DNA of 37,013 bases from a bacterium (GTDB taxonomy: Bacteria; UBA9089; CG2-30-40-21; SBAY01). Below, piece by piece: positions 2,256 to 34,912 of this stretch. The stretch is taken from positions 1-37,013 of the forward strand of contig JBFLXS010000005.1 of the NCBI GenBank assembly GCA_040755795.1. The letters run 5' to 3'. Both the position numbers and the translations under genes were made by a program. Below the pieces are notes generated by a model. It did no database searches. It had not been told where the DNA came from and saw nothing but the letters and a program-made list of their open reading frames with translations. How positions within the stretch are numbered: the first letter of the stretch is position 1; each line of letters starts with the position of its first letter.

Positions 2256-3744
2256 TATCAAAAATCCTTTCTTTACTAATAACATACAAAAAGTAAAAAA
2301 ATACGAGAAATGCCAACGAAACTATAGTACCAATCAACGCAGAAAGCATGAAAAAGTTGAGCCATGATGTGATAATTACTGGATTAATTTGAAAGTATAA
2401 ATAGAGTAAAGTTACCAAGATAAATGATATCAAAAATATTAAAATTGGTAAAGAGTTTTTGAAACTAGTTACTCTTTTGTTTTGAACATTTTTTTGATAT
2501 ATGGCGTTGCTCAAAAAACTTATTATTGGTCCTAGTAATGCATATTCAAATCCCAAAAAATACCCAGAAATCACTGATACTATTATTGCAATAAAAACAA
2601 ACATAATTGCAATTTTTGACGTTTCTTTAAAGAGACCATGCGAAGCTGTGGGAATAGCGTAGATTACTCTAAAAGTATTTGCCAGTGAAAACATTATCAA
2701 CATGTACCCTAATACAGGATTCACATAGTTTAAATCAGAAATTCCGAAAGTATATATCTTTATAAATGGAGTGAGCAAGATTGCTGTTGAAATAAGCATT
2801 ACAGTTGCAAAGAAAAAATACACAAAATAGAAATTTTTGAAGAAAATATTTTCTTTCTTTATATTTCCCTCATTTACATTATGAGTAAATGTTGCAGTGA
2901 TAGATTGATAAATTGTTGATAGTATGATATTTATCATAATAATTGGCATATTATATACTGTGTATATACTAACTTTTTCAAAATCGTAAATAAATGTAAT
3001 AACTAGTAATGGTAAAGCTGATATGATAGTGTAAAAAATTTCGTGAAAGAAAACATCTTTCTGCATATTTAGAGAAAATTTTTTGTCGATAATTGATGAA
3101 AACGAGATTAAATCTTTATAATGTTTTCTAACAAAATAATTTAATGATATTCCCCTTATCAGGTTAATTATCAAACTTAATGTATAAATAAGCAGGATAT
3201 TCACATTATTGATGATCAGAAAGATGGTTAATACCTGACTAACTATTGTTGAAATAATTGTAAATATTGATATGTAATAACTTTTTTGATCAGCATGAAG
3301 TAGGACTCTACACTTGGACATAATAAAGTATTCTATCGAAGTAGTTAATCCAAATAACAGAAACAAACTTGCTATTGTTACTTTATCAATGTTTTGATTA
3401 TTAGCTAGCATTGCGTAAATTGGAGTAAATAACAATACAATAGTTGAGAAGATTATCCCTATTTTAATATAACTTTTTTTCGAATAACTTAAAATAATGT
3501 TAACATTTTTATAGTCTTTAGCAGATAAATATCTTACAAGGTAAAATACCGCAGCACCACCTAATCCAGCTTCTATCAATGTGAAGTATCTTAAAAGCTG
3601 ATTAATGGATGAAACTATACCATTTAGTTCAGAGCCATATTGCTTGATAATAAGTGCTGGAGTAATAAAACCAAACAATGCAATAACAAATTGTAATAGA
3701 ATTGAAGTACTGGTATTAAGTATAATTGGTTTTCTATAACTCAT
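2248..3744 (-). CDS. wzx: polysaccharide flippase, Wzx-like (MOP superfamily)
   Basis: This 498-residue, very hydrophobic protein has roughly twelve to fourteen predicted membrane helices spread over its whole length. The N-terminus (TSTSILLQFVIALFGFITPALII) and the following IKQYGSELNGIVSSINQ segment are typical of oligosaccharide repeat-unit translocases. Such proteins move undecaprenyl-diphosphate-linked repeat units across the cytoplasmic membrane. It lies among glycosyltransferases and next to a Wzy-like polymerase, as expected for a Wzx/Wzy-dependent pathway. A ribosome site (GGAAGTAGGTG) precedes the ATG. Substrate specificity cannot be read from the sequence. The family call is firm, while the exact transported unit is inferred from the operon. 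Confidence 0.88.
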   Translation of the reverse strand: MSYRKPIILNTSTSILLQFVIALFGFITPALIIKQYGSELNGIVSSINQLLRYFTLIEAGLGGAAVFYLVRYLSAKDYKNVNIILSYSKKSYIKIGIIFSTIVLLFTPIYAMLANNQNIDKVTIASLFLLFGLTTSIEYFIMSKCRVLLHADQKSYYISIFTIISTIVSQVLTIFLIINNVNILLIYTLSLIINLIRGISLNYFVRKHYKDLISFSSIIDKKFSLNMQKDVFFHEIFYTIISALPLLVITFIYDFEKVSIYTVYNMPIIMINIILSTIYQSITATFTHNVNEGNIKKENIFFKNFYFVYFFFATVMLISTAILLTPFIKIYTFGISDLNYVNPVLGYMLIMFSLANTFRVIYAIPTASHGLFKETSKIAIMFVFIAIIVSVISGYFLGFEYALLGPIISFLSNAIYQKNVQNKRVTSFKNSLPILIFLISFILVTLLYLYFQINPVIITSWLNFFMLSALIGTIVSLAFLVFFYFLYVISKERIFDND

Positions 3745-3751
3745 ATTACAC

Positions 3752-4717
3752 CTACTTCCTTCTGGTTATAAACACTCTTAATGTACTAAGTGCATAAAAT
3801 GTGAAATCTTTTGTGATCATCATCTGAATTTTTTCAAAAGCAGTATTATTGCTTGCTATTATTAAATTATACATCTTTATTCTCACTTGCTTATATAATA
3901 CTTTTTTGTTCTTTACATAATTTATTGATATCTTAGCAAATAAGTTTTTGTATTCATTTAGATTTTTTTTTGTTAGAGTATTTAGTGTCTCAATATAAAA
4001 TATTTTCCTGATATCATCATCACTTAACCCATTTCTTTTTAATAGATCAAATCGCGCTTTATTGGCAAACATATGTTGACTCTCTGTATTTTTTTTACTT
4101 ATTTGCTGGTCATGAACTCGATAAAACAAAAGTTTTTTGTTTAAATTATGAAATCTTTTTTCATGGATGAGTCTAGTCCATAGTTCATAGTCTTGTGCTT
4201 TAAGAGTATTATTATCGTACAGTGGGTTAATATTGATACTATTTGATCTTATCATTATTGTTGGATGAGCCATTGGGTTATTAAATAGTAGTGCAGCTTT
4301 TATCTCTTCATGTTTTTTTGGATATTTCCTTTGATATCCTACTAAACCCAACGCTTTGATTTGTGTACCTAAAATGTCAATTTTTTTATGCTTCTCCATG
4401 TATTTAACTTGAACCTCAATTCTATTCTTGTAAGAAATATCATCAGAATCCATTCGTGCGATATACTTACCAGTAGAAACCTTAATAGCTTTATTCAAGT
4501 TTGAAGTTAGACCATGATTTGAGTCATTGTAAATAATTTTCAATCTCTTATCATTATAAGTTTCTAGTATGTTACGTGTTTTATCAGTTGAACAGTCTTC
4601 AAAAATTATTATTTCTAAATTTTTGTAAGTCTGTTCTAATAAACTATCGACACACTTCTTTATAAAATACTCTGAATTAAAAGATGACATTATTATACTA
4701 ACCAGTGGGGTTCTCAT
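3752..4717 (-). CDS. family 2 glycosyltransferase (GT-A fold)
   Basis: This 321-residue transferase begins VSIIMSSFNSEYFIKKCVDSLL, the standard GT2 N-terminus. The first aspartate motif is EDCSTD (about residues 40-45) and the metal-binding DxD-type motif is RMDSDD (about 88-93). A conserved YELWTRL segment (about 177-183) probably supplies the catalytic-side residues. It should add one sugar to the lipid-linked repeat unit on the cytoplasmic face. There is no membrane helix. It sits 2 bases after the polymerase gene and 7 bases before the flippase gene, so expression is coupled. Donor and acceptor are unknown. Confidence 0.9.
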   Translation of the reverse strand: MRTPLVSIIMSSFNSEYFIKKCVDSLLEQTYKNLEIIIFEDCSTDKTRNILETYNDKRLKIIYNDSNHGLTSNLNKAIKVSTGKYIARMDSDDISYKNRIEVQVKYMEKHKKIDILGTQIKALGLVGYQRKYPKKHEEIKAALLFNNPMAHPTIMIRSNSININPLYDNNTLKAQDYELWTRLIHEKRFHNLNKKLLFYRVHDQQISKKNTESQHMFANKARFDLLKRNGLSDDDIRKIFYIETLNTLTKKNLNEYKNLFAKISINYVKNKKVLYKQVRIKMYNLIIASNNTAFEKIQMMITKDFTFYALSTLRVFITRRK

Positions 4718-4719
4718 TA

Positions 4720-6120
4720 TTAATTACCTTTGATATACAGTATTTTAGTGTAAAAAAAGTATATGACATACACATAGATATATACATTAAAATAGGTAAT
4801 AAAAGTGTAAAAATAACCTCGTGGGTATATGAAAAGAGGAATTAGTAAGTAAAAAAATAACGTCACATTCATTGGTTTTTTCGAAAGACCATTTTCTCTA
4901 AATTTTATGCTAATTTTATTGAGAATTAATGATATGAATATCCCGGAAATTAGGCTAAAATATCCAAAATTATAATATAATTCAGCCACATATGATCCAC
5001 CAAGACCACCTCCAAAAAAAGTATTCATATTTTCTCCTATTGATATGTATTGATTGAAAAAATCTCCAAATAGTATTGAAGAGAAAGGCAGTAAAATCAT
5101 TGTTGATCCAAGATATGTCAATCCATTTGCATACTGAATACTTTCAGGGACAAATTCAAATGTATGTATTAGAGTTAATAACGTTCCTCCAAACTCTGAA
5201 AACATATAAATCAAAGGGTTGTTATATGAAATATAAAAGATAAAATTAGAAACTATGCTATTTGAGCCAGTTACATTTCTTATTTGAGCAATGTAAGGTA
5301 ATAGCAATAGTAGTAATAATATGAATATTAGGTGAGTTACTTTTAATCGACGAAATGAATACTTAAAATAATAGTAATAGATAAAAATACACATTAGTAT
5401 TATTGCCATTGGTAAAGATCTATTCCCAACCATTAGCATCTTAAATACATTCCAAAAAATAAAAGAAATTAGAATATATTTACCTAGTAATTTGTTTTTG
5501 TGGGTAATAACAAATCCTATAAAAACAATGAGAAACATATTATTTAAGATAGATAATATATATGCATTGCCAAATTTATATGCTTCTACGTAACCAAACT
5601 GTTGTGAGAGAAAAATTTGAGTGATGTCAACATAGAAATAAGGAATAATTGTAATAAGCAACATTAATGAAAAGAATCCGAAATCTCTTTTAGTGGAATA
5701 TTTAGATATTGCATTTTCATTTAAAAATATTTTGCTATTATTGTGAAAAAGTTTATAAAATTGGCCTGTAATTTCAATTATTTTTGTTAAAAACAACGCA
5801 AAATATGTGCTTTCGACAATAATATTGCTGTCGTACCTTAGAATATTAAATTTATCGGGTAAAATAATGTCAAAATTGAATACTAGAAGAAAAAGCTGGC
5901 CAAAATGGAACAAATATGTAAGGACAACAAAAATGAAATAAATATCCAAAACCTTTCCTTTAGTCAAAAAATGGGAAAAAATAAATATTGTGAATGATAG
6001 AAAAGCGATAAGTGATGCAGTGTACAAATTGTTGTTTGACAGTGAAAAAATAAATATAAAAAACATAAAAAATAAGTTCACAATTGCAATATATAGATTT
6101 ATAGTTTTAGTATTATTCAT
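4720..6120 (-). CDS. wzy: O-antigen/EPS repeat-unit polymerase, Wzy-like
   Basis: This 466-residue integral membrane protein has about twelve hydrophobic helices and a large loop in its second half (roughly residues 280-370). This topology is typical of Wzy and O-antigen polymerases, which join repeat units on the outer face of the membrane. Sequence conservation in this family is low, so the call rests on topology, length and position between glycosyltransferases and close to the flippase. The loop carries charged and aromatic residues (RNVTGSNS, SEFGGTLLTLIHTFE) and a glycine-rich FGGGLGGSY stretch. A ligase of the same fold is the main alternative. Confidence 0.78.
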   Translation of the reverse strand: MNNTKTINLYIAIVNLFFMFFIFIFSLSNNNLYTASLIAFLSFTIFIFSHFLTKGKVLDIYFIFVVLTYLFHFGQLFLLVFNFDIILPDKFNILRYDSNIIVESTYFALFLTKIIEITGQFYKLFHNNSKIFLNENAISKYSTKRDFGFFSLMLLITIIPYFYVDITQIFLSQQFGYVEAYKFGNAYILSILNNMFLIVFIGFVITHKNKLLGKYILISFIFWNVFKMLMVGNRSLPMAIILMCIFIYYYYFKYSFRRLKVTHLIFILLLLLLLPYIAQIRNVTGSNSIVSNFIFYISYNNPLIYMFSEFGGTLLTLIHTFEFVPESIQYANGLTYLGSTMILLPFSSILFGDFFNQYISIGENMNTFFGGGLGGSYVAELYYNFGYFSLISGIFISLILNKISIKFRENGLSKKPMNVTLFFYLLIPLFIYPRGYFYTFITYFNVYIYVYVIYFFYTKILYIKGN

Positions 6121-22351: not shown

Positions 22352-24049
22352 ATGAAACAAACCGTTGAAATCATTCAACCCAAACAAAAGTATAAAGATA
22401 TCTTCACCAATCAAGTGATTCGAAAGAAAAGAGTCGCAGCTTATGCCAGAGTCTCAACCGATGAGACAGACCAGTTAAACAGTTATCAAGCGCAAATTGA
22501 AGAGTTCACCAGAAGGATTAATACAAATCTAGAATGGGAATTTGCAGGCATGTTCTGTGATGAAGGCATCACAGGAACCAATATGCTCAAACGCCCTGGA
22601 TTCATGAAAATGATTGATGCTGCTAAAGGTGGCCATATTGATTTAATCTTAACAAAGTCAATATCACGTTTCTCTCGTAATACAGTCGATATCCTAACCA
22701 CCATTAAAGAACTCCGTTCAGTTGGTGTTGAAATCTTCTTCGAAAAAGAAAGCATCTCATCAGTTGATCCGAAGATTGACTTTGTATTAACCATTATGTC
22801 ATCGATGGCTCAAGAGGAATCACGCTCCATATCAGAGAATACCAAATGGGGTATTCAAAAGAGATTCCAACAAGGCAAGCTCATCATGTGTACGAGAAAT
22901 TTCTTAGGCTATGACATGAATGAACTTGGTGACTTAATCATTAATAAAGAACAAGCAGAAACCGTTAAATACATCTTTAAATGTTATATCAATGGTATGT
23001 CAACCTCAAAACTCACCAATCATCTAAAAGAGATGCAAATCAAGAATGGTAGAGGGGTTGTCAATTGGTTTCCAGATACCATAAAAGAGATTTTAATCAA
23101 TGAAAAGTATGTAGGTGACCTTCTTCTACAAAAGACGGTTACCGTCGATTATTTAAGCCATGAGAGTAAAATCAATGATGGCTACGCAACCAAATATTAT
23201 ATCAAGAATGCACATGAAGCCATCATTGAACGTGAAGTCTATGACATCGTTCAAACGATGATGCATGCAAGACACTTAATTGTCTCTGTTGATTCCAAAG
23301 AACGATTTAAACACTTGGCTCAAAAACCGATGAAAGGTTTAGTGTATTGTAGTCAATGCAAACGTATGTTTAACTCTAAGATGCATAACTCTGGAACAAC
23401 ATTTAAAAAGAGTATGTTAAAGTGTCACACCTCAAGAAACAACCCAATGGCGTGTGATAACCATTCGATACATGAACCACTCCTAGAACGTGCAACCCTT
23501 CATGTCGTTGAGTCGATGACGAAAACAAAGGATATGCAAGATAGCATTTTATTCTATATGGAACAAACTCTTAAAAAGAATAATTCACATGAACAACTTC
23601 AGAACTTAAAACTAGATCGTGTTGATCTAGGAAATAAACTCAAAGCACATGTGAATAACCGAATACACAGTTCATTATCCGATAGTGACTATAAGAAAGA
23701 ATATCAACGCTTAGAAATCGAGTATAACAGTATTACAAAGCACATTGAAGCATTGACTCAAGATATCACCAAAGAGCACTTAATGAGACGAAGATTCTAC
23801 GCATTAAAGAGCTTTATCGATACCAACTACCAGGATACAAGCATCATCAAGAGCTTCTTTGGTATCGTCTTAATGATGGGTCAAAATCACGTGAGATACG
23901 TGATTGATGATACATTCATTACGATTGATGAATTGCATGAACAGATGGACATACTAAAAGAACTCCCTATCTTGATGAAGGGAACTTACTATGATTTAAA
24001 TACAAGAGAAAATATATACTACGAGGTGGTTATTAGTGAAAGAAATTAA
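22352..24049 (+). CDS. large serine recombinase, first of a pair
   Basis: This 565-residue enzyme has an N-terminal resolvase domain (about residues 27-175) with catalytic serine 35 in AAYARVSTDE. The arginine-rich catalytic segment follows as SISRFSRNTVD, and EESRSISENTKWG begins the long helix. A recombinase domain comes next (about 190-300). The zinc ribbon has cysteines C333, C336, C358 and C368. A coiled-coil region (about 400-475) then carries LQNLKLDRVDLGNKLKAHV. Large serine recombinases integrate and excise mobile elements at specific att sites. It overlaps the next recombinase gene by 14 bases. Tandem pairs with an upstream regulator recall CcrA/CcrB and other multi-recombinase systems. 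All expected domains are intact. Confidence 0.95.
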   Translation: MKQTVEIIQPKQKYKDIFTNQVIRKKRVAAYARVSTDETDQLNSYQAQIEEFTRRINTNLEWEFAGMFCDEGITGTNMLKRPGFMKMIDAAKGGHIDLILTKSISRFSRNTVDILTTIKELRSVGVEIFFEKESISSVDPKIDFVLTIMSSMAQEESRSISENTKWGIQKRFQQGKLIMCTRNFLGYDMNELGDLIINKEQAETVKYIFKCYINGMSTSKLTNHLKEMQIKNGRGVVNWFPDTIKEILINEKYVGDLLLQKTVTVDYLSHESKINDGYATKYYIKNAHEAIIEREVYDIVQTMMHARHLIVSVDSKERFKHLAQKPMKGLVYCSQCKRMFNSKMHNSGTTFKKSMLKCHTSRNNPMACDNHSIHEPLLERATLHVVESMTKTKDMQDSILFYMEQTLKKNNSHEQLQNLKLDRVDLGNKLKAHVNNRIHSSLSDSDYKKEYQRLEIEYNSITKHIEALTQDITKEHLMRRRFYALKSFIDTNYQDTSIIKSFFGIVLMMGQNHVRYVIDDTFITIDELHEQMDILKELPILMKGTYYDLNTRENIYYEVVISERN

Positions 24050-25673
24050 AGTTATTGAATCCAATAAAACAAAACAAGCAAGTAAAGGTAAAAAAAGGGT
24101 TGCTGCATATGCTAGAGTATCCACTAAACAAGAACTACAGGAATCATCTTTAGATATACAAATTGCTCATTATGTTAAGGAGATTATCTTCAATAAAGAC
24201 TATGCATTTGCTGGGATCTATTATGATCATGGTAAATCAGGTACTTCGATGAAGAAGCGTGATGGTCTGCAAGCACTACTTAAAAAGATTGATGAAGGTA
24301 GAATAGATCTTGTTTTAGTGAAATCCTTATCCAGATTTGCTAGAAACACCATTGATGCACTAAATGTCATTCAAGACACCAGAAAAAAAGGTGTTGAGTT
24401 CTACTTTGAAAAAGAAAACATCTCAAGTTTAGATACAACCATTGATATGATATTGACGATGATGGCTGGTATGGCTGAAGCAGAATCACAATCGATGTCA
24501 CAAAACATCTCATGGGGTCATCAAAAAAGAGCCGAGAAAGGTGTAGTTCCCCTTAGACCAGTCTTTGGTTATGACATTACCAAAGATAGACAAATAGTAA
24601 TCAACTCATTAGAAACTGAAGTTATCCAAGTTATCTTTGCTATGACCATGAAAGAGTATCCAATGAAAAGGATTGTTGAATACGTTAAAAGTCTAGATGT
24701 GAAGACTAAACAAGGTAGACCAATCAATAAATATACTCAAATCAAAAACATACTTACAGATATTAGATATACCGGACAAATCATACGTGGAAAGACTTAT
24801 ACAAAAATAGAAGGTTTAGAAAAGACTAGAGCCATCAATGATGGTGATAGACCACTTTACGTGATTAAGAATCATCACCCTGAAATCATTGATTTAGCTA
24901 CGTTCGATATAGTTCAAGAAATATTAAGTCAATCTAAGCAGACTTATATCAAAAGACCCTATAGAACCATAGACTTAAAAAACTTCATCTTCTCGCTAAA
25001 TCATGAAGCATATCTTCATCGTAAACAGATCGATGTCGATAATAGAGACTACGATTTACTTGAGAATGAATACCAACGAAAAAGCGATTCTCCAAGGCTT
25101 TATATGAAGACTGCTAAACACGTTCTTAAAAGAGCAATGAACTCGTTAGGACGCAATTTTAGCGACCTGGAAGCCAAGTACGACAAGCAAGTGAAACTAC
25201 TTCTAAAGAAATATGATCTCGAACTAGAACTAATCACATTGGCGAACCTGGTAGCTGGTTATAAGCAAGAGTATTACAAGATTAAAGATAAGAAGAGTCT
25301 GGATTCTTCTGATACTGCATTGATGTTTCAACTTGAAGATGTAATTACAAAATTCAGTGTTGAGTATGTACAATTAGAAGATAAGTATTTTGAGAACAGG
25401 GAAATGTATAAATACCCTGAGGTGATAAAAAAGTTGATTTGTTCTTATGATTATCCAATCCAAGAGATTGATCCAAATATGGTTAAAAGCATATTTAGCA
25501 ATCTAGTGATAGTAGATCCAGAAAACTATGTGTTCATCATTGATACTACTAATAAAAAGTTAACGCTGGAGGATATGAAAAAAGCAGCGACTATGAAGCC
25601 GTTGCTTGAAGGCAAATGTGTCTCTAAAGGAAAGAACTCAGATATGATAGCTTGGAAAATATCATTAATCTAA
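24036..25673 (+). CDS. large serine recombinase, second of a pair, lacking the zinc ribbon
   Basis: This 545-residue protein starts at GTG 24036 with AGGTGG six bases ahead, inside the end of the first recombinase gene. The resolvase domain has catalytic serine 29 in AAYARVSTKQE and the SLSRFARNTIDAL and EAESQSMSQNISWG motifs, so it is likely competent for cleavage. A recombinase domain follows (about 175-300). The region where the partner has its zinc ribbon (about 315-360, NFIFSLNHEAYLHRKQIDVD onward) contains no cysteine at all; only two cysteines exist in the whole protein, near residues 470 and 530. The tail contains a long charged helical region (about 375-465). It probably acts together with the first recombinase, perhaps as a partner binding the other half of the att site. 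Confidence 0.92.
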   Translation: MKEIKVIESNKTKQASKGKKRVAAYARVSTKQELQESSLDIQIAHYVKEIIFNKDYAFAGIYYDHGKSGTSMKKRDGLQALLKKIDEGRIDLVLVKSLSRFARNTIDALNVIQDTRKKGVEFYFEKENISSLDTTIDMILTMMAGMAEAESQSMSQNISWGHQKRAEKGVVPLRPVFGYDITKDRQIVINSLETEVIQVIFAMTMKEYPMKRIVEYVKSLDVKTKQGRPINKYTQIKNILTDIRYTGQIIRGKTYTKIEGLEKTRAINDGDRPLYVIKNHHPEIIDLATFDIVQEILSQSKQTYIKRPYRTIDLKNFIFSLNHEAYLHRKQIDVDNRDYDLLENEYQRKSDSPRLYMKTAKHVLKRAMNSLGRNFSDLEAKYDKQVKLLLKKYDLELELITLANLVAGYKQEYYKIKDKKSLDSSDTALMFQLEDVITKFSVEYVQLEDKYFENREMYKYPEVIKKLICSYDYPIQEIDPNMVKSIFSNLVIVDPENYVFIIDTTNKKLTLEDMKKAATMKPLLEGKCVSKGKNSDMIAWKISLI

Positions 25674-25693: not shown

Positions 25694-26785
25694 TTAATAG
25701 AAGGTTATTATACTCAAACTATCTTCATCAATTGAGTATTTTAGTGCACAGGTGAATTTATCACATTTTGTTTGAGATATGAAATCAAAAATAACATCAA
25801 ACTTAACAATATGATACTCATTGATAAGTGATAAATCTATATTATATACAACACTATTCTTGATCTTATCAAATATAAGCTCTTCAATCTTGTCTACATC
25901 TTCTTCTGCTAGTCCTAGTCTAGTCATTGTTTTTTTACTGTTTTCAACATATGTCAATTTATCTTGAGTGACTTTTAATGGTTTATCGACCAAGTCATTA
26001 CTTTTAGTGATAACGTTACTCATTAGATGTTGATATTCACTTTCTTCCCAAACTATAACGTCAGAAGATATCATATATTTAAGAAATATATCAAAATAAT
26101 CGCCACGAATACTCAAAACTTTATATCCCATACTTTCAAGCATATCCGATGATATGCATCTATCACTTATCTCGTCAATATCAGGTTCATGACCTGTTAT
26201 TGCAAGCCCATCGTGTAATACATATCGTGTACCAATTGTGCGTCTCAAGTACGTTTTCAATAAACTAGAGTAAGTCATATCAGCATACCCTATAATTGAT
26301 TCTATTTTTGATAAATTTGACGTAATAGCATAAACATCTTCCTCCGACAAGTTGTTAATGTAAATGCAATAAAGCCCATTTACAATATATTTCCTTTTTT
26401 CATTGTCTATTTTCATATAATCAAATAGAATGTTTAGCACTTTGACAGGTGCTTTACCATGAGTTAAGTCTAAGTAATCACCGGTTAATATGTTGTGGGG
26501 TTTCTTTCTATCAAGGTGTGGCAGTATTTTTGATAAGGCTGTATCTCCATAGTTGAAAGTTTTTAAAAGTGAAATATCAAATACAAATAGATATTCTTTT
26601 TTATCTTTGTTTGGAACTAGTGAATATTTAAGTTTCTCGTAATCAAATGCTTTATTAATGTGATTCAAAAAATCGTTGAAAAATTCAATAATACTAAATG
26701 ACATAATTTCTGGCGACAAACTAGCATAGTTTTTCAGTGCTGTAAACATAACATTATCCCTTGATTCTATTGTGTGTATTTTCAT
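25694..26785 (-). CDS. protein of unknown family, last gene of the SIR2-HerA operon
   Basis: This 363-residue protein is not recognised. It appears soluble, with no signal peptide or membrane helix. Visible traits are acidic residues throughout, a central block (about residues 170-235) with IIGYADMTYSSLLKTYLRRTIGTRYVLHDG and GHEPDIDEISDRC, and a C-terminal half with predicted beta strands (SVVYNIDLSLINEYHIVKFDVIFDF). I see no nuclease, protease, TIR or kinase motif. It starts 48 bases after the KTSC gene and has only a weak ribosome site. Its end lies 20 bases from the convergent serine recombinase, with a TAGCAA-C-TTGCTA palindrome (25678-25690) between. Position implies a role with the SIR2-HerA genes (sensor, regulator or effector), but that is inference. 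Confidence 0.8.
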   Translation of the reverse strand: MKIHTIESRDNVMFTALKNYASLSPEIMSFSIIEFFNDFLNHINKAFDYEKLKYSLVPNKDKKEYLFVFDISLLKTFNYGDTALSKILPHLDRKKPHNILTGDYLDLTHGKAPVKVLNILFDYMKIDNEKRKYIVNGLYCIYINNLSEEDVYAITSNLSKIESIIGYADMTYSSLLKTYLRRTIGTRYVLHDGLAITGHEPDIDEISDRCISSDMLESMGYKVLSIRGDYFDIFLKYMISSDVIVWEESEYQHLMSNVITKSNDLVDKPLKVTQDKLTYVENSKKTMTRLGLAEEDVDKIEELIFDKIKNSVVYNIDLSLINEYHIVKFDVIFDFISQTKCDKFTCALKYSIDEDSLSIITFY

Positions 26786-26833
26786 ATGTTAAGTTCACTA
26801 TTCTGTAGCAACAATTTAGATTTTAGACTGCTG

Positions 26834-27055
26834 CTAGCCAATTTTTTCATAAGAATATTGATTTTTAACATATACGTGTAAGTATGATCCTACTGAACTT
26901 GATGATAATAGATCCTCATAAACATACTTTGGGACATTGGAATATGCATATTTTGAACCATCTAAAAACTGTACAAACAATGTTGAAGTGTGATCATCAT
27001 AACCTATAGAATCTACATTTGATGAAGATACATGTACCATAATAACATCACTCAT
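26834..27055 (-). CDS. KTSC-domain small protein
   Basis: This 73-residue protein fits the KTSC domain: SSNVDSIGYDDHTSTLFVQFLDGSKYAYSNVPKYVYEDLLSSSSVGSYLHVYVKNQYSYEKIG. The domain is named for its occurrence at the C-terminus of some lysyl-tRNA synthetases, and free-standing copies are common in phages and mobile elements. A nucleic-acid-binding role has been suggested, with no settled function. It overlaps the herA end by 8 bases and has AGGAG nine bases before its ATG, so its production is coupled to HerA. Whether it is a part of the defence system or a passenger is unknown. Confidence 0.87.
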   Translation of the reverse strand: MSDVIMVHVSSSNVDSIGYDDHTSTLFVQFLDGSKYAYSNVPKYVYEDLLSSSSVGSYLHVYVKNQYSYEKIG

Positions 27056-28823
27056 TTTTCGGTGCTCCTTTCGAATTTCTTAGTATAGAAAGCATTTCAG
27101 AATATTTAGAAAGATCAGGCTTTTGACTTTTCCATTTTTGAGAGATAACTGGGTCGCTTGAAAAACCTTCATTTTTTAAATAATACTTCACTTTACAAGG
27201 TATCTTTACAGACTCTCCCATTATTATTGCTTCACCAGTTCTTAAAGTTGATAAAGTTTTCGTTATTGATTCCATATCCGAGTCAATAGCTCCGTTAATA
27301 AATGCTTTATCTTTTGGATTGTTTAATCTTAAACACATCATTGTTCCCATCTGACTGATTATAGTGTCCCCTATTTCACTTGGACGTTGAGTTATCATCA
27401 TTAATCCAGCACCATATTTTCTTCCTTCTTTTGAAATGCGTTCAATAACATTTCTTGCGACATTTTGTCTAGATTTTGTATCTCCAAAATACGAGTGTGC
27501 TTCTTCAAGTACAATCAACATAGGAAAGTCTTTTCCGTTTACAGGACTTTCTAGTAAAGTTAAGGAATTATATACTATGTTCAAAATAGTTCCGACTATA
27601 ATATGATGTGTGTATGAAGGGATATTTGATAAATCGATAATTGTTATTTTTTTGTCATGACCGAACCAACTAAATAACAAAGAGTCTAAATCTGATTTTA
27701 CAACACCCTCATCATTAGGAGTATAGTCGCCTGGATGAAACATGAAATTGTAACGAGGATCAAGTAGTTTAGCTCTAATACTATCTAAAAATGATTGAAT
27801 TCCTTTTTTTAGATTATTATCAATGAATGGAGCGGATGAACCAAATCCAGGCGGTTTGAATTTTGCTGAGATGAATTTATCGGGATTTCCTTCTTTCACT
27901 AATGCTTCATCATCAGTTCCTCTATTATTTAATGTTCTTCTTTCATTTCGATCAAGTTCATACCAAAGGTTTTTTAAGCTAAACGGATATGGTGTATCAA
28001 TAGTAAATTGTCCTGGGTTGTCACCTGTTTTCTTAGCTGAGTTAACTTTCCTTTCGAGAACCAATTCTGCGATCATTGATAATTGATTTTCATTCAAATT
28101 GTTGTAAAACAAGTCTAAGAGAGAGTAAAAATCTATTGCCCAAAATGGTACAAATAAGTCGTCAATATTTGGATCTCTCATTTCAGTTGATGATCTGATT
28201 TTGAAAACCTTCGAGTCATCTTTCACTACTTTTGAATATTCACCGTGAGGGTCAATTACAAATATTCTAGATGCTTCAAGTTCCTTTTTAGATGATATTT
28301 CTTTTAAAATAACTGTTACTGCATTGGATTTACCTGTACCAGTTGCTCCAATTACAATAGAGTGTCTTGATATCAACTTGTTCATATCGACCATTACTTG
28401 AATTGAGTCATTACTGCTTAAATGACCTATTCTTAATGGATAAACATTCCTATCAAGTAGATGTATGATTTCTAACTCATCATTCGTAAGCAGAAAAACT
28501 TCATCTTTTGTTAATGGAAACTGAGTAATTCCTTTTTCAAAATGGTTTCCAGAAATTTCACCTAAAAGCAATACTTCAGCATGTCTATAGTTTGAATATT
28601 CCTTCTCAACTTCATCCTTGATTCTCTCATTCAGATTAATTGATGTGATAATTCCTATTAAACTAACATATCCTATCGAAATTTTGACCAAACTTCCAAT
28701 TTGTCCGATTTTCACGATTGAATCTCCATAGACTACTATGTCTGATGCAACATTGTTATCCAAAATCACATCGATTTGATTACCTTTTACTGATAGAACA
28801 TAGCCAATACTGTATTTATTCAT
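27048..28823 (-). CDS. herA: HerA-family hexameric ATPase of a SIR2-HerA defence pair
   Basis: This 591-residue ATPase has an N-terminal HAS-barrel (about residues 1-60, GYVLSVKGNQIDVIL then GSLVKI), Walker A GATGTGKS at 159-166, DPHGEYSKV (about 191-199), Walker B MLIVLEEAH at 435-443, and ERISKEGRKYG plus TQRPSEI (461-484), which supply the arginine finger and sensor region of FtsK/HerA translocases. HerA forms ring hexamers. In SIR2-HerA (also called Nezha) it assembles with SIR2 and the complex responds to phage. It overlaps SIR2 by 8 bases at the start and KTSC by 8 at the end. Every expected motif is intact, so it should be functional. Confidence 0.95.
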   Translation of the reverse strand: MNKYSIGYVLSVKGNQIDVILDNNVASDIVVYGDSIVKIGQIGSLVKISIGYVSLIGIITSINLNERIKDEVEKEYSNYRHAEVLLLGEISGNHFEKGITQFPLTKDEVFLLTNDELEIIHLLDRNVYPLRIGHLSSNDSIQVMVDMNKLISRHSIVIGATGTGKSNAVTVILKEISSKKELEASRIFVIDPHGEYSKVVKDDSKVFKIRSSTEMRDPNIDDLFVPFWAIDFYSLLDLFYNNLNENQLSMIAELVLERKVNSAKKTGDNPGQFTIDTPYPFSLKNLWYELDRNERRTLNNRGTDDEALVKEGNPDKFISAKFKPPGFGSSAPFIDNNLKKGIQSFLDSIRAKLLDPRYNFMFHPGDYTPNDEGVVKSDLDSLLFSWFGHDKKITIIDLSNIPSYTHHIIVGTILNIVYNSLTLLESPVNGKDFPMLIVLEEAHSYFGDTKSRQNVARNVIERISKEGRKYGAGLMMITQRPSEIGDTIISQMGTMMCLRLNNPKDKAFINGAIDSDMESITKTLSTLRTGEAIIMGESVKIPCKVKYYLKNEGFSSDPVISQKWKSQKPDLSKYSEMLSILRNSKGAPKNE

Positions 28824-30030
28824 CTTTACTTATCTCCAATCGCATGGACTCGAGATATCGGAATAACTGAGGTGAATCAACAATTTTCAATATTGCTTTA
28901 ATTTTTTGTTTTTCTTCGTCTACTTCTTTTTCGTTTTTACTTTGCACAAATATGGATTCGAAGAGATATTCTGTTAAGTCGAGATTATCCTTACTAATAT
29001 TATCGTATTCATACTCTCCATACTGACCATCGATGTATGCAGATTTGTTACCCAACAACCAAAATCTATTGTTTTCAATACACATTTTTTTTAAACTATT
29101 ACTATTTTCAAGCAGGGATTCACCTGATGGTAACTTGTCATATAAAAGACCAACGACTAATGAATTGGTGTTCGTCTTCAATGCATCTAGAATTATTTCA
29201 TTAATATGTTGATCTTGAAAAGAGTATCCAGATGTAATTAAGACACAATCGTCGGATTTAATAAAATAGGACAGCCTATCTAATAGACAAGTATATGGTT
29301 CTTTTCTGGAATCTTTGTACTTTAAAATTGAAGGAAGAATCATTAAACTTTTAGTTTTCATCGAGCGGATTATACCATTGTGCGATTCCGACCATCCTAA
29401 TGATCCATGTATTTTCCACAGTTTAACATTCTCGTCTTTGCTTATTTTACTTATGTAAGTTGAATCAAAAAATGGGTGTAAAGAACCGAAAAAACCATCA
29501 ACGAATTTAACTTTTGAATTTTCTAAAGCCATTTCAATAAGCATATCGTAATTAGTTGTGAAAATTTCGATGCCAAAGTCACGCTTCGTATTCTTTAGCC
29601 AATTTGCAAACTTTACGTGAGGTAGAAAATGATCTAGTTGTTTTTCGTGAATATCTAAATGTTTTACAAGGATATCTTTTATTTGATCTACAATAGAATC
29701 TCTTAATGCTATAAGTTGCTGTTTATTCAAATTATCAATGGTACCTTTACCAATAACTTCAATGCGCATATTTATATTAGTTAGTAGGGACTCAATATTG
29801 AACACATCACCATCATTTTCTTTTATAGACTTTATTGTATTCGCATAATCTTCTTTTATCTCATCCACAATTCTTTGAGTAATCTCCTTGATCCCTGGAA
29901 TACTATATAATTTGAGATCATCACCTAAATTAATAGAACTCCCCGCACCAAATAGAAAACCTAATTTCTTTTTATTTGATGACAAAATAGAGTTTAAATT
30001 ATTCGATACTTTTAGCACACTGTGTGACAT
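28816..30030 (-). CDS. SIR2-family NADase-like effector of a SIR2-HerA pair
   Basis: This 404-residue protein has the SIR2 nucleotide-binding loop GAGSS at 28-32, TTNYDMLIE at 158-166, the catalytic histidine H208 in WKIHGSLGW and the SGYSFQDQHINE segment at 267-278. These match defence-associated SIR2 proteins that hydrolyse NAD+ and cause abortive infection. The C-terminal part (about 300-404) is charged and probably contacts HerA. It starts with GAGGGATAAA before the ATG. The gene lies 27 bases after the TOPRIM-like gene and overlaps herA by 8. Catalytic residues are conserved, so NAD+ depletion upon activation is the expected outcome. The association with HerA is seen in the sequence; the enzymatic role follows from the family. 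Confidence 0.95.
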   Translation of the reverse strand: MSHSVLKVSNNLNSILSSNKKKLGFLFGAGSSINLGDDLKLYSIPGIKEITQRIVDEIKEDYANTIKSIKENDGDVFNIESLLTNINMRIEVIGKGTIDNLNKQQLIALRDSIVDQIKDILVKHLDIHEKQLDHFLPHVKFANWLKNTKRDFGIEIFTTNYDMLIEMALENSKVKFVDGFFGSLHPFFDSTYISKISKDENVKLWKIHGSLGWSESHNGIIRSMKTKSLMILPSILKYKDSRKEPYTCLLDRLSYFIKSDDCVLITSGYSFQDQHINEIILDALKTNTNSLVVGLLYDKLPSGESLLENSNSLKKMCIENNRFWLLGNKSAYIDGQYGEYEYDNISKDNLDLTEYLFESIFVQSKNEKEVDEEKQKIKAILKIVDSPQLFRYLESMRLEISKDE

Positions 30031-30057
30031 TTTATCCCTCTTTTCACTGATTGATTT

Positions 30058-30582
30058 TTAATTACATAAATCGAGTAAATAATATTCATTATAGTTATGG
30101 TTGCAAATTGATTTGTATTCTTTTAATATTGAGATTATTTCAGTCCTAGCGAAGTAATCCTTTATCCAAGTGTAGCTATTGTCAAATCGCTTACCGTTAA
30201 GTTTCACTCTTTGTTTTGCAAACACTTTTGCTTTAGTATTGCTTTTACATTTTTGATATTCCTCGTACAAGGATTCAGCAATTATAATAAGGATTTCAAA
30301 TTCTGGTTTTGTACAATATTTTTCTTCTGAGTGTATTTTCTCTCTAATATCCTTTGGAATTTTCAGTTTATCCGTTATCTTGTCGCCAATTCTAATGATT
30401 TTTACTTGCTCATCCTTATCAAGTTGTCTGATCATGGCAAGCAGGTATGAATCTAACTGACGTTTTTGATGAGGTCTTAAATCCAACATATCATCTACAT
30501 TTATTTTGAATAGTCCCTTATCTATTAATAATTCAATAAATGCTTTTTCACTATTACCCTCTAACAGTATCAGATATTTCAT
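30058..30582 (-). CDS. small TOPRIM-like protein paired with an AAA ATPase
   Basis: This 174-residue protein has a first strand and glutamate typical of TOPRIM folds (MKYLILLEGNSEKAFIELL, E8) and a later hydrophobic strand ending in aspartate (KIIRIGDK, D67), followed by CTKPEFEILIIIAESLY (about 90-106). This layout is like RloB/AbiLii and other small TOPRIM nucleases that accompany AAA15/AAA21 ATPases. The full DxD motif is not clear. The C-terminus (KAKVFAKQRVKLNGKRF) is basic. It overlaps the ATPase gene by 29 bases and lies 27 bases before SIR2, so it is a true operon partner. A nuclease or tRNA-targeting role is inference; a non-catalytic binding subunit is the alternative. Confidence 0.72.
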   Translation of the reverse strand: MKYLILLEGNSEKAFIELLIDKGLFKINVDDMLDLRPHQKRQLDSYLLAMIRQLDKDEQVKIIRIGDKITDKLKIPKDIREKIHSEEKYCTKPEFEILIIIAESLYEEYQKCKSNTKAKVFAKQRVKLNGKRFDNSYTWIKDYFARTEIISILKEYKSICNHNYNEYYLLDLCN

Positions 30583-31711
30583 TAATCAATTCTTTCTTTA
30601 ACTCCATTAAACGATCATAATTGATAAGGGTTTGGAAAGTATTGTTATTAAATTGATTACTCTTGCTTAAGTCGATGCGATCTTTAAAATCTTTATATAA
30701 ATTGCATGCTGTAATGTGATCGTTCTTTCTCATTACAAAGATGTTATCTCTTCTTCTAAAAATATCTAGTATCTCCACATAGTGTGTACTAAAAATGAGA
30801 TTTGCGTTCTTAACATTAATCCGCTTATCATTAAAAATCATAATGATGTTTTCGACGAGATTTTTATGGAAGCTGTTTTCGATTTCATCAATAATGAGAG
30901 TTCCACCCATTTTGAGAATTGCGATGGTTAATCCAAACATAATCAATCCTTTTTTAGTACCGTCTGAAAGAAGCATGTCGACTTCCTTCTCACTGTAAGT
31001 TTTTGCTCCAATACCATTCAAGTCCAGAACGAATAATTTCTTATCTAGATCGTATTCGAATTTTTTGATCCCCTCATCAAATAAATTAGTAATTTTCAAC
31101 ATTAACTCAGTTGAAACTTCTACAAGATTAAAAATATCAAATATACTTTCAATGCGATAATTATGGATCCAATTATTTGTATTAATAACTAGTGTTCTCT
31201 TAATTGTAAGTTTGTAAAGGATAGATGTGTCTGAAACGTTACTGGTGTAAGTGTTGTTTTCATCAAAATCTAGATCGAGGATTCGCTTGCTGTAACTCTT
31301 TGAATATTTTTTTGAGTATAGCTTTTCATTAGAAAACTTACAGTAACTTGTTTCGTTTAGTAATGTTGCTTCTGGAATGCTGATATTGCTTTCGTATTTA
31401 TATACCGTTTCAAGTAAATAGAAAAAGACTGTTAACTTTATTGTTTTAGATCTGAAATCTAATTTATCGTATTTGATTCGTCCACTCAAAAGCAACTCAT
31501 TTACAAATTCTATCATCGATAAAACAGATGATTTTCCACTGGCGTTCTTACCTGTAAAAACTATGGTGGTTGGTATATATAAACCTTCATCTAGTTCAAT
31601 GACTTCATCGTCCTTATCTGAATTATTCACACGAGCTTTATTTAAAAAGTTTATTTCGAAATTGTTTTCTAGCAACTTGTATCCCGAAATAATTATTTTA
31701 AGTATTTTCAT
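30554..31711 (-). CDS. ABC-type AAA ATPase (AAA15/AAA21, OLD/AbiL/PARIS-like), first gene of the operon
   Basis: This 385-residue P-loop ATPase has Walker A GKNASGKS at 54-61, an ABC-signature-like segment LLSDGTKKG at 247-255, Walker B TLIIDEIENS at 271-280 with D275 and E276, and a switch histidine H310 in STHYVEILD. This domain order is found in OLD, AbiL/RloA, PARIS AriA and retron-type ATPases, which work with a nuclease or toxin partner. The small TOPRIM-like protein encoded in its last 29 bases is the expected partner. The gene has AGGAGG eight bases before ATG and a near-consensus promoter, so it leads the six-gene operon that also carries SIR2 and HerA. The motifs are complete. Confidence 0.9.
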   Translation of the reverse strand: MKILKIIISGYKLLENNFEINFLNKARVNNSDKDDEVIELDEGLYIPTTIVFTGKNASGKSSVLSMIEFVNELLLSGRIKYDKLDFRSKTIKLTVFFYLLETVYKYESNISIPEATLLNETSYCKFSNEKLYSKKYSKSYSKRILDLDFDENNTYTSNVSDTSILYKLTIKRTLVINTNNWIHNYRIESIFDIFNLVEVSTELMLKITNLFDEGIKKFEYDLDKKLFVLDLNGIGAKTYSEKEVDMLLSDGTKKGLIMFGLTIAILKMGGTLIIDEIENSFHKNLVENIIMIFNDKRINVKNANLIFSTHYVEILDIFRRRDNIFVMRKNDHITACNLYKDFKDRIDLSKSNQFNNNTFQTLINYDRLMELKKELINEISDTVRG

Positions 31712-31719
31712 TTTAGATT

Positions 31720-31763
31720 CCTCCTAGTATTTTCATTATATACCCAAATTGGCATTTTGTAAA
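31720..31763 (-). promoter_or_regulatory. near-consensus promoter and ribosome site of the defence operon
   Basis: On the minus strand TTTACA (31758-31763) and TATAAT (31735-31740) are separated by 17 bases, with AGGAGG at 31720-31725. Only this promoter is apparent upstream of the six co-directional genes ending at 25694. No obvious operator palindrome overlaps it, which suggests steady expression of the system. Confidence 0.75.
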
Positions 31764-31921
31764 CATTCACACGTTTATTTCGTTTGAAAATATATTATTT
31801 ATGCTTTTTTAATGTTTTTTGGAATCGTTTAGTTGAAAAAAACAATCCAGCTTAAACCTAAGTTGACTTTTATATTGTATTAGTCTATCTCCGTAGCAGC
31901 ATACTTAAACTATTCGGATAT

Positions 31922-32341
31922 TTATTTTGTATTCAGCCACTTAATTATTTCTCTTAATGAGTTTGAACCAATGACTGATGTTATGAAGTCGTTCGATCTG
32001 TCAAATACTGTGTAACGAAATTCATTTGCTCGGTTTTCTATTTGAATAACGAACAATGATTCGTCTGTTTCGATATCAGTAATTCTGAAATCATCATAGA
32101 GTGGTCCGTTAAGAGGACAGTTGTTCTTAAACCATACATAACTACTCTCAAGATCTACTTTACCACCTGGTTTAATCTGTTTAATAATATTACCCATTCT
32201 TCTTGTTTTATTCACTAAACTACTATCTTTGCAAAACCAATCATACCAACCAGCTTCAATTTGAGTTTGAACATCGCTAGATGCGTATTTACCGTCATTG
32301 AATCGTTCAACCCATTCTCTTATGCTTATTTCCTTTCTCAT
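31922..32341 (-). CDS. small conserved-looking protein of unknown function
   Basis: This 139-residue protein is not assigned to a named family. It contains a WYDWFCKDSSLVNKTRRMGNIIKQI segment (about residues 32-56), a YVWFKNNCPLNGPLYDDFRI segment (about 68-87) and ends in a short LREIIKWLN helix. Similar aromatic-rich small proteins are seen in mobile elements of Bacillota; the resemblance is from memory and should be treated as weak. No membrane helix or signal is present. The ATG has an AGGTG ribosome site eight bases upstream. It is separated from the defence operon by 210 bases containing that operon's promoter, so it is a separate unit on the same strand. Confidence 0.72.
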   Translation of the reverse strand: MRKEISIREWVERFNDGKYASSDVQTQIEAGWYDWFCKDSSLVNKTRRMGNIIKQIKPGGKVDLESSYVWFKNNCPLNGPLYDDFRITDIETDESLFVIQIENRANEFRYTVFDRSNDFITSVIGSNSLREIIKWLNTK

Positions 32342-32660
32342 GCTTAAATCACCTTCCTTTGTGTATATCTTTGGTATGTATATATATCACTTAAATGACG
32401 CTATTAATCAAGTAAAATCCTTCATTCTCGTGAACTCATTCTTTTATCGGAAATAACTTGTAATGAATATGTAGTGAGTTAACACACAATTTATAAAATC
32501 TCATTTTTTTGAAAACCTCATATTAGCTTCATGGTGCTGTGAAGTCAATAATCTATTATGTAAAATAAAACACTAAATGGACAAAACAGTTCAAAATGAT
32601 AAAAAAAGATAGGATTTTGTCCTATCGGTGTCAATTCTTCAATTTAGGGTGTAACAGATG
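32342..32660. other. intergenic stretch with inverted repeats and a terminator
   Basis: No gene is visible in these 319 bases. The stretch contains the left arm of an inverted repeat (32464-32484), a strong minus-strand terminator (32601-32626), and alternative complementary segments GGACAAAA (32579-32586) and TTTTGTCC (32615-32622). It separates the orphan small gene from the broken integrase. Confidence 0.6.
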
Positions 32661-32677
32661 TTAACTCACTGTATTCA
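32464..32677. repeat. imperfect inverted repeat pair bracketing about 175 bases
   Basis: The left arm TGAATATGT-AGTGAGTTAACA (32464-32484) and the right arm, read on the minus strand, TGAATAC-AGTGAGTTAACA (32677-32659) share a 12-base exact core plus a six-base outer match. The right arm supplies the last codons and the stop of the truncated integrase, so the homology to the integrase family ends at this repeat. It looks like the edge of a small inserted or deleted segment, or a recombination site. Confidence 0.5.
32601..32626 (-). terminator. strong Rho-independent terminator
   Basis: GATAGGA (32608-32614) pairs with TCCTATC (32620-32626) across a 5-base loop. On the minus strand the stem is followed by seven T (complement of 32601-32607). 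It terminates leftward transcription from the integrase remnant and shields the downstream genes. Confidence 0.8.
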
Positions 32678-33215
32678 CATGCAAAATCATCGACAGTTCT
32701 AGTTTAGAGGTGGCGGTGATGAGATCCTTCTTTTTGGCTCGTCTGATCTCGACACTTCTCATCCCAGAGATCAGCATCAAATAGATGATGGCATAATCCC
32801 GGTAATGCCAGATATAGCGTCTATTTTCCTTTAAGGATGCAATCAAGTGTTTGGCTTGTTCAAGACTTAGTGTCTCTCGAAAGTGGTGTGTGATCCGTTC
32901 GTTTTTGATAGGTTCACTGATATCATCACTATACTCATGAGGTAAGTCTAATCTACGCTCATTCCTTTTTAGATACTGATAAAATCCCTTAATGGCGCTG
33001 ATTTGGTTATAAATCCATCGAGAGGAATAGTTTCTTCTTCTTAACCCCTCGACATAATTCTCTAAATCACGTGTGGTAGCAAACGTGATTTCGTGTTCTT
33101 TTAGGTATGTGATGTATTGTTTCAAAATGATCAGATAGAGATCATAGGATTCTTTCGTGATATCTTTATCTTCTAGATAGACAAGAAGTACGGATTCAAG
33201 CGGGTGTTTGATCAT
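32661..33215 (-). pseudogene. truncated tyrosine recombinase/integrase
   Basis: These 184 residues cover the N-terminal SAM-like domain and the start of the catalytic domain, ending soon after the first catalytic arginine (YLMLISGMRSVEIRRAKKKDL, about residues 147-167). The HxxR box, second histidine and tyrosine nucleophile are missing, while related integrases have about 320 residues. The last ten or so codons (from about MILHVNTVS) do not resemble the family and run into an inverted repeat. It is a diverged relative of the intact integrase at 19515-20486, with shared LSLEQAK and R-x-x-EI-x-RAK motifs. The missing half was not found in the window. It cannot recombine DNA but could still bind att arms. 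Confidence 0.85.
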
Positions 33216-33766: not shown

Positions 33767-34912
33767 ATGAGTCGTTCAGGTGTATTTATTAACAATTTAG
33801 CTGGGAGTCTTTCCTATCAGTCTTTTAGACCAAGTGATCTACCACCTATTCCAGAAATAGTCATTGATGATGTACTCGACAAAAAAATCAAAGAAGCTTA
33901 TCATTTGCTGGGTAAACTGGATGGTATATCAAAATTAATTCCAAATAAGGATCTCTTTATATCGATGTATGTTAGAAAAGAGGCACTTCTATCGAGTCAA
34001 ATTGAAGGTACACAAGCAACGCTAGATGATATTTTCGATCCTCACTTAGAGCAGAACATGAATGTAGATGTTGAAGAAGTCATCCAATACCTAAAAGCAC
34101 TTTATTATGCCAACGTATTATTGAATAATCTTCCAATTTCTATTCGTTTTATTAAAGAGATTCATCATGTACTACTCACATCATCGAGAGGTAAGGATAA
34201 AGAACCAGGAGAACTCAGAAGAACTCAAAATTGGATTGGACCACAGGGTAGTTCACTAAAAAATGCAAGATTCATACCGCCTAATCTAAGTGATATGCAG
34301 AATTCACTTGCCAATTTAGAATCTTATATACATGAAAATGATTCATTAGATCCTCTCATCAAAATAGCTCTGATCCACTATCAGTTTGAAACTATTCACC
34401 CTTTTTTAGATGGAAATGGTCGTATCGGAAGACTTTTGATATCGGTGTTATTAAAACATTATGGTTTACTTGAAGAAGACACTTTATATCTGTCATATTA
34501 TTTAAAAAGAAATCGAATCGATTATTATGACAGATTAATGGATGTCAGATTGAAAGGACATTATGAAGCATGGATATCATTTTTTATCGAAGGTGTGATT
34601 GAATCATCGAAACATGCGTTAAAAACAATTGAATCTTTATTAAATTTAAGAAAAGAACATTTAGAAATTCTTAGTCAGCTTCAAGGAAAAACAAAACAAA
34701 CTGCATTACTTCTATTCACATATTTAGAATCACATCCAATCATTGATATCAAGCAAGCAAGTATCGGTATCGGAAGAGCATTTAATACAGTATCTACTGC
34801 AATAACTACTTTCGTTAATCTCGGTATTTTAAAACAAGTAGATGGTAATAAGAGATATCGTATCTTTTCATATGAGCCTTATTTGAATATTTTAAGAGAT
34901 GGCACAAATTAA
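33767..34912 (+). CDS. Fic-domain protein with N-terminal inhibitory helix and C-terminal HTH
   Basis: This 381-residue protein has a Fic_N region, the inhibitory motif S-x-x-x-E-G at residues 76-81 (SSQIEG) and the complete active-site loop HPFLDGNGRIGR at 211-222. Fic enzymes usually transfer AMP from ATP to a hydroxyl side chain of a target protein. The internal glutamate (E80) would hold the enzyme inactive until displaced. The C-terminal part (about residues 305-365, IDIKQASIGIGRAFNTVSTAITTFVNLGIL) looks like a winged helix, suggesting DNA binding and self-regulation. It is a single-gene unit with its own promoter and terminator. The target is unknown. Confidence 0.93.
   Translation: MSRSGVFINNLAGSLSYQSFRPSDLPPIPEIVIDDVLDKKIKEAYHLLGKLDGISKLIPNKDLFISMYVRKEALLSSQIEGTQATLDDIFDPHLEQNMNVDVEEVIQYLKALYYANVLLNNLPISIRFIKEIHHVLLTSSRGKDKEPGELRRTQNWIGPQGSSLKNARFIPPNLSDMQNSLANLESYIHENDSLDPLIKIALIHYQFETIHPFLDGNGRIGRLLISVLLKHYGLLEEDTLYLSYYLKRNRIDYYDRLMDVRLKGHYEAWISFFIEGVIESSKHALKTIESLLNLRKEHLEILSQLQGKTKQTALLLFTYLESHPIIDIKQASIGIGRAFNTVSTAITTFVNLGILKQVDGNKRYRIFSYEPYLNILRDGTN

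Follow-up and report, generated by a model that had tools for sequence, protein, structure and literature searches.

Analysis of a 37,013-nucleotide stretch of DNA from a bacterium of the lineage UBA9089 (contig JBFLXS010000005.1, positions 1 to 37,013; hereafter the window) suggests that its six-gene minus-strand operon probably consists chiefly of two separable defence modules, set head to tail on an SCC-like cassette behind one shared promoter. Module A (30058-31711) is an ABC-type AAA ATPase with a small partner protein (genes 1 and 2); module B (26834-30030) is a SIR2 NADase subunit with the HerA ATPase/translocase and a KTSC protein (genes 3 to 5); a 363-amino-acid (aa) protein (gene 6) completes the operon. 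Each module occurs without the other and presumably works without it, although this independence is inferred. The chief new point is that the SIR2-HerA clade studied here is a three-gene system.

The distribution of the two halves carries this reading. Profiles of the small protein were run on overlapping samples of 399, 392, 160, 90, 395 and 396 genomes and alignments of the AAA protein on viral contigs; with two plasmid loci added, this gave 30 loci (designated by L numbers) that contain both an AAA gene and a small gene. SIR2-HerA lies beside the pair in one of them (L119), where it is of a different subtype (PADLOC SIR2 PDLC04080 and HerA PDLC04097) with SIR2 divided between two reading frames. 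For the reverse comparison, an alignment of SIR2 scanned against an 84,980-species genome collection yielded 542 confirmed relatives, the best 80 of which were kept; the comparison set comprises 86 close SIR2-HerA loci in all, from many phyla. Against all open reading frames (ORFs) of these 86 loci, the small-protein profile had no match and the AAA profile had one marginal match (E 0.0087, L034); the pair was found in none. Because 29 of 30 pairs lack SIR2-HerA and 86 of 86 SIR2-HerA loci lack the pair, two modules are preferred to the single composite system of four proteins proposed in a sequence-only reading of the same DNA. The genome-neighbourhood check that this reading had set for itself beforehand places the pair almost never beside SIR2-HerA, and counts against the composite. 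The absence of SIR2-HerA at L121, L130 and parts of the viral contigs is weaker evidence because these stretches are short.

The operon layout is given in Table 1. ORF coordinates confirm to the base the six minus-strand genes and their spacings of -29, +27, -8, -8 and +48 nucleotides, and the near-consensus promoter that had been read in front of them is real: it ranks first of 41 promoter-like sites in the region, the weaker of which occur at chance frequency (43.7 expected). Both hexamers and an AGGAGG site are invariant across the window and two relatives, L118 and L119, the latter aligning to the window at ~72% DNA identity; conservation of the hexamers in both marks the promoter as more than an accidental match. 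A sequence scan of the operon interior for terminator-like sites found none. Since the promoter is conserved, the interior is free of such sites and the weaker promoter-like sites arise at the chance rate, all six genes are likely to be carried on a single mRNA, as the sequence-only reading supposed. The tight translational coupling that it saw between the TOPRIM-like and SIR2 genes was, however, a misreading: that junction is a 27-nucleotide gap, SIR2 has its own ribosome-binding site (GAGGG), and overlaps are confined to each half (AAA with the small protein; SIR2 with HerA, by 8 nucleotides, and HerA with KTSC). The argument from coupling to a composite system therefore fails.

Table 1. Features of the operon and its surroundings in the window
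Feature	Position	Strand	Remarks
Operon promoter TTTACA-17-TATAAT	31763-31735	-	11/12 consensus
ABC-type AAA ATPase (gene 1)	30554-31711	-	385 aa, AbiLi-like; PADLOC and Pfam
Small partner of ATPase (gene 2)	30058-30582	-	174 aa; matches no family
SIR2 NADase subunit (gene 3)	28816-30030	-	404 aa; PADLOC, PDB 8w9l
HerA hexameric ATPase/translocase (gene 4)	27048-28823	-	591 aa; PADLOC, PDB 8wiv
KTSC protein (gene 5)	26834-27055	-	73 aa; Pfam
363-aa protein (gene 6)	25694-26785	-	no significant family
Two Ccr-like large serine recombinases	22352-25673	+	other cassette end, convergent with operon
139-aa ORF	31922-32341	-	upstream of promoter; co-inherited with AAA gene in L118, within 91%-identity stretch

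The SIR2 protein of module B (PADLOC SIR2, 1.8e-88) has its top PDB match in the 8w9l series (1.6e-49), to the SIR2 chain of a solved complex with HerA, and HerA matches PADLOC HerA (1.3e-137) and, by profile, PDB 8wiv (1.1e-204); the earlier assignments of these two proteins and of the AAA ATPase to their families were thus upheld by PADLOC, Pfam and PDB matches. The candidate active-site residues N160 and H208 of SIR2 are invariant in a seven-sequence alignment and were equated, by motif context and without alignment to the V. cholerae protein, with the essential N168 and H227 of V. cholerae SIR2 (PMC11559045). Gene 5 matches Pfam KTSC (5.3e-21) and has no PADLOC or NCBIfam match. The order SIR2, HerA, KTSC recurs in all of the plasmid homologues, which come from a haloarchaeon, Methylocystis, Citrobacter, Sulfitobacter and Pseudoalteromonas. 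KTSC either immediately follows HerA or is fused with it in 78 of the 81 assessable loci, a count that excludes five loci in which HerA is absent or cut by a contig end (L027, L043, L061, L072, L074); the exceptions are L010 and L041, in both of which HerA is short, and L093. The fusions are 680 aa long (L088, L089, L091), and the solved HerA of 8wiv, which shares PDB entries with the SIR2 of 8w9l, carries KTSC as a C-terminal domain (residues 628-696); the other solved HerA chains are without KTSC, as is the SIR2-HerA locus of L119. Because KTSC adjoins or is fused to HerA in these loci and in 8wiv, it is, as judged from gene neighbourhoods and domain matches, a genuine third component of this clade. 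Of the "two extra genes" of the earlier reading, only the 363-aa gene is therefore extra. No description of SIR2-HerA with KTSC was found in the literature searched, subscription papers being outside reach.

SIR2-HerA-KTSC often stands close behind another gene: a same-strand ORF ends within 60 nucleotides upstream in 33 of 83 loci, mostly an unrelated gene, the ORFs being mechanical calls of which some are not genes. The main recurrent upstream kind is hsdS-like (five cases: L031, L032, L052, L060, L071), and methylase-like genes accompany the trio in L016 and L030 (labels given by eye, on sequence and blastp similarity), suggesting that it often rides in restriction-modification operons. Directly upstream of SIR2-HerA in L061 (7071-8909) lies a 613-aa protein with AlbA_2/Schlafen, a RecG-like ATPase and a C-terminal KTSC, an example of KTSC being common to other conflict-like proteins. 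At L027 a KTSC fragment (~1807) directly follows SIR2 on a contig with no HerA, which was either deleted or lost by misassembly. In the haloarchaeon Natrinema (L008, 8997-9974), ADP-ribosylglycohydrolase genes follow the trio.

The ATPase of module A matches PADLOC AbiLi (2.3e-39) and Pfam AAA_21 (3.7e-13); its Walker A (GKNASGKS), signature (LSDGT) and Walker B (LIIDEIE) motifs are intact, and their key residues are invariant or nearly so in 18 relatives. The small gene lies directly behind the AAA gene in relatives of the pair. Its product has no significant family match in PADLOC, Pfam or NCBIfam, PADLOC matches AbiLii neither to it nor to three relatives, and RloB is matched, weakly (0.011), by one of 17 family members. 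Residues E8, E12, D67, E94 and E96 are invariant; the acidic positions come after three strands, where metal ligands would be expected and as in TOPRIM. An AlphaFold2 model from nine sequences is confident (pLDDT 92.5, pTM 0.86) and has no match in PDB or in a viral structure library at E <= 0.001; an earlier fold from four sequences was poor (pLDDT 58), its structure matches meaningless. When its profile was compared with that of a TOPRIM-like protein from L118, the first motif alone could be aligned. That the small protein is a reduced TOPRIM is a plausible conjecture. L118 carries, on the same cassette as the first pair and convergent with it, a second, unrelated AbiLi-like ATPase with a TOPRIM-like partner (motifs IVEG and VDTD; 3012-5142).

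Most of the other pair loci lie among unrelated, often housekeeping genes, and the pairs are mostly solitary; at L121 a Fic gene stands behind the AAA pair. Several pairs are cargo of phage contigs close to terminase-like genes, recognised by eye (L154, L162, L163, L166), pointing to a recurrent phage cargo slot. Scans of the viral contigs with single proteins (AAA, SIR2, the small protein and the 363-aa protein) gave no matches; alignments were needed. No AAA relatives beyond one weak match were found in the window's family (4 genomes) and phylum (19 genomes), and a search of 396 genomes of a third phylum, run without a positive control, found no homologue of the small protein.

Taken together with what is known of homologues, the two modules may be supposed to act as follows. 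In module A, an AbiL/PARIS-like pair, the ABC ATPase would sense a phage product and hold or release its small partner, probably a nuclease, much as in PARIS, where AriB is held by AriA until a phage trigger sets it free (PMC12409363). In module B, a HerA hexamer would assemble with SIR2, and phage-related DNA would engage a HerA/KTSC face, KTSC being the putative nucleic-acid-facing part of HerA. The NAD+ pocket of SIR2 would then open and the cell be emptied of NAD+. The SIR2-HerA part of this is known for homologues, in which the pocket opens once HerA has bound (Zhen et al. 2024, cited in PMC12198126) and phage is blocked by the loss of NAD+ (PMC11559045). The shared transcript would place both modules under one promoter.

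Several points weigh against the two-module reading. In each of the two nearest relatives of the pair, a candidate defence gene starts 14 or 40 nucleotides behind the pair, in one case SIR2-HerA of another subtype, which mere stacking does not require; moreover, the nuclease role and fold of the small partner are putative, and the module functions and shared expression are predicted. An alternative, to which we give a small but real share of the probability, is that in this subclade the pair is a general sensor or regulator behind a fixed promoter, with SIR2-HerA-KTSC, SIR2-HerA or an AAA_13 protein plugged in behind it as the output arm through recombination inside the small gene. The window, L118 and L119 indeed form one clade (support 0.998), with an effector starting on the same strand 27, 40 and 14 nucleotides behind the pair, respectively, under the conserved promoter; that of L118 is an AAA_13 protein (PADLOC PDC-S06), a candidate defence gene. 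Between the window and L118, DNA identity is 91% over 30209-32718, and the AAA proteins are 98% identical, the small proteins 72%; within the small gene, third codon positions drop from 0.88 identity to 0.5-0.7. Positive selection on the divergent end of the small protein was ruled out, since synonymous sites diverge too. Because silent sites have changed, the drop points most readily to a recombination breakpoint; the downstream module would have brought the 3' part of this gene along with it. Swapping of effectors would leave such a breakpoint, and so, equally, would ordinary homologous recombination between islands. Against swappable effectors, moreover, such loci number only three, including the one from which the analysis began, and L119 has its broken SIR2; the wider pair family is mostly solitary, and in every other place examined SIR2-HerA-KTSC lacks the pair.

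The two-module reading also has to be set against two further accounts. That the halves are chance neighbours transcribed separately from promoters and terminators of their own is highly improbable: the small gene does contain, at its end (30107-30079), a promoter-like site matching at 9 of 12 positions, but sites of this quality occur at chance frequency, the interior is free of terminators and the gap is only 27 nucleotides. Still more improbable is one six-component system including the 363-aa protein. Common strand and short spacings would suit it; however, plasmids of Burkholderia, Robbsia and Pseudomonas that lack SIR2-HerA encode full-length relatives of that protein, and none was found in the 86 SIR2-HerA loci. 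The 363-aa gene is probably an unrelated passenger, co-transcribed on the same strand. On three Burkholderiaceae plasmids its relatives lie behind a DUF5677 gene, and on a Pseudomonas plasmid beside a Wadjet-like set (L156, L157, L158, L159).

As for the surroundings, the window is, by its predicted gene content, an SCC-like serine-recombinase cassette with variable cargo, because the Ccr-like recombinases face the operon and L118 retains, at the matching end, a remnant of the second of them (42% identity over 154 aa). The recombinases match NCBIfam CcrB at 3e-33 and 1.2e-34, below the cut-off, and no flanking direct repeat of at least 13 bases was found in the stretches compared. A truncated tyrosine recombinase (32661-33215, minus strand; 184 aa, its C-terminal part missing) adjoins the operon, and its end falls inside the stretch common to the window and L118. 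A Fic protein (33767-34912, plus strand; PADLOC SoFic, 3.4e-112) is a further candidate defence gene nearby.

SIR2-HerA has been described as a two-gene system; here it comprises three genes, or a HerA with a KTSC tail, and this holds across bacteria that are very distant from one another and in an archaeon. Cloning SIR2 and HerA alone from this clade may leave out something that sensing or assembly requires. PMC12198126 lists the trigger of SIR2-HerA as unclear; for the DNA-facing sensor of the system, KTSC is an evident candidate. The ATPase/small-protein pair, for its part, is a candidate defence family whose second gene has no matching database model.

Like SCC-type cassettes, this one bears two large serine recombinases, relatives of CcrA/CcrB, at an end of its variable cargo; the difference is that they score far below curated Ccr cut-offs. 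Module A resembles AbiL (AbiLi/AbiLii) and PARIS (AriA/AriB) in that an ABC ATPase of the AbiLi/AriA kind is followed by a smaller partner gene, whereas the partner here is ~175 aa long and without a PADLOC match, and no solved TOPRIM structure significantly matches its confident model. Module B shares with SIR2-HerA (Nezha / GAO_19) the order and overlap of the two genes and the SIR2 active-site residues, but has a separate KTSC gene after HerA. In other systems, HerA-like ATPases are also coupled to a DNA-binding KTSC protein, with an endoDNase in place of the sirtuin (PMC9503650), whereas the KTSC of the clade studied here accompanies the sirtuin version.
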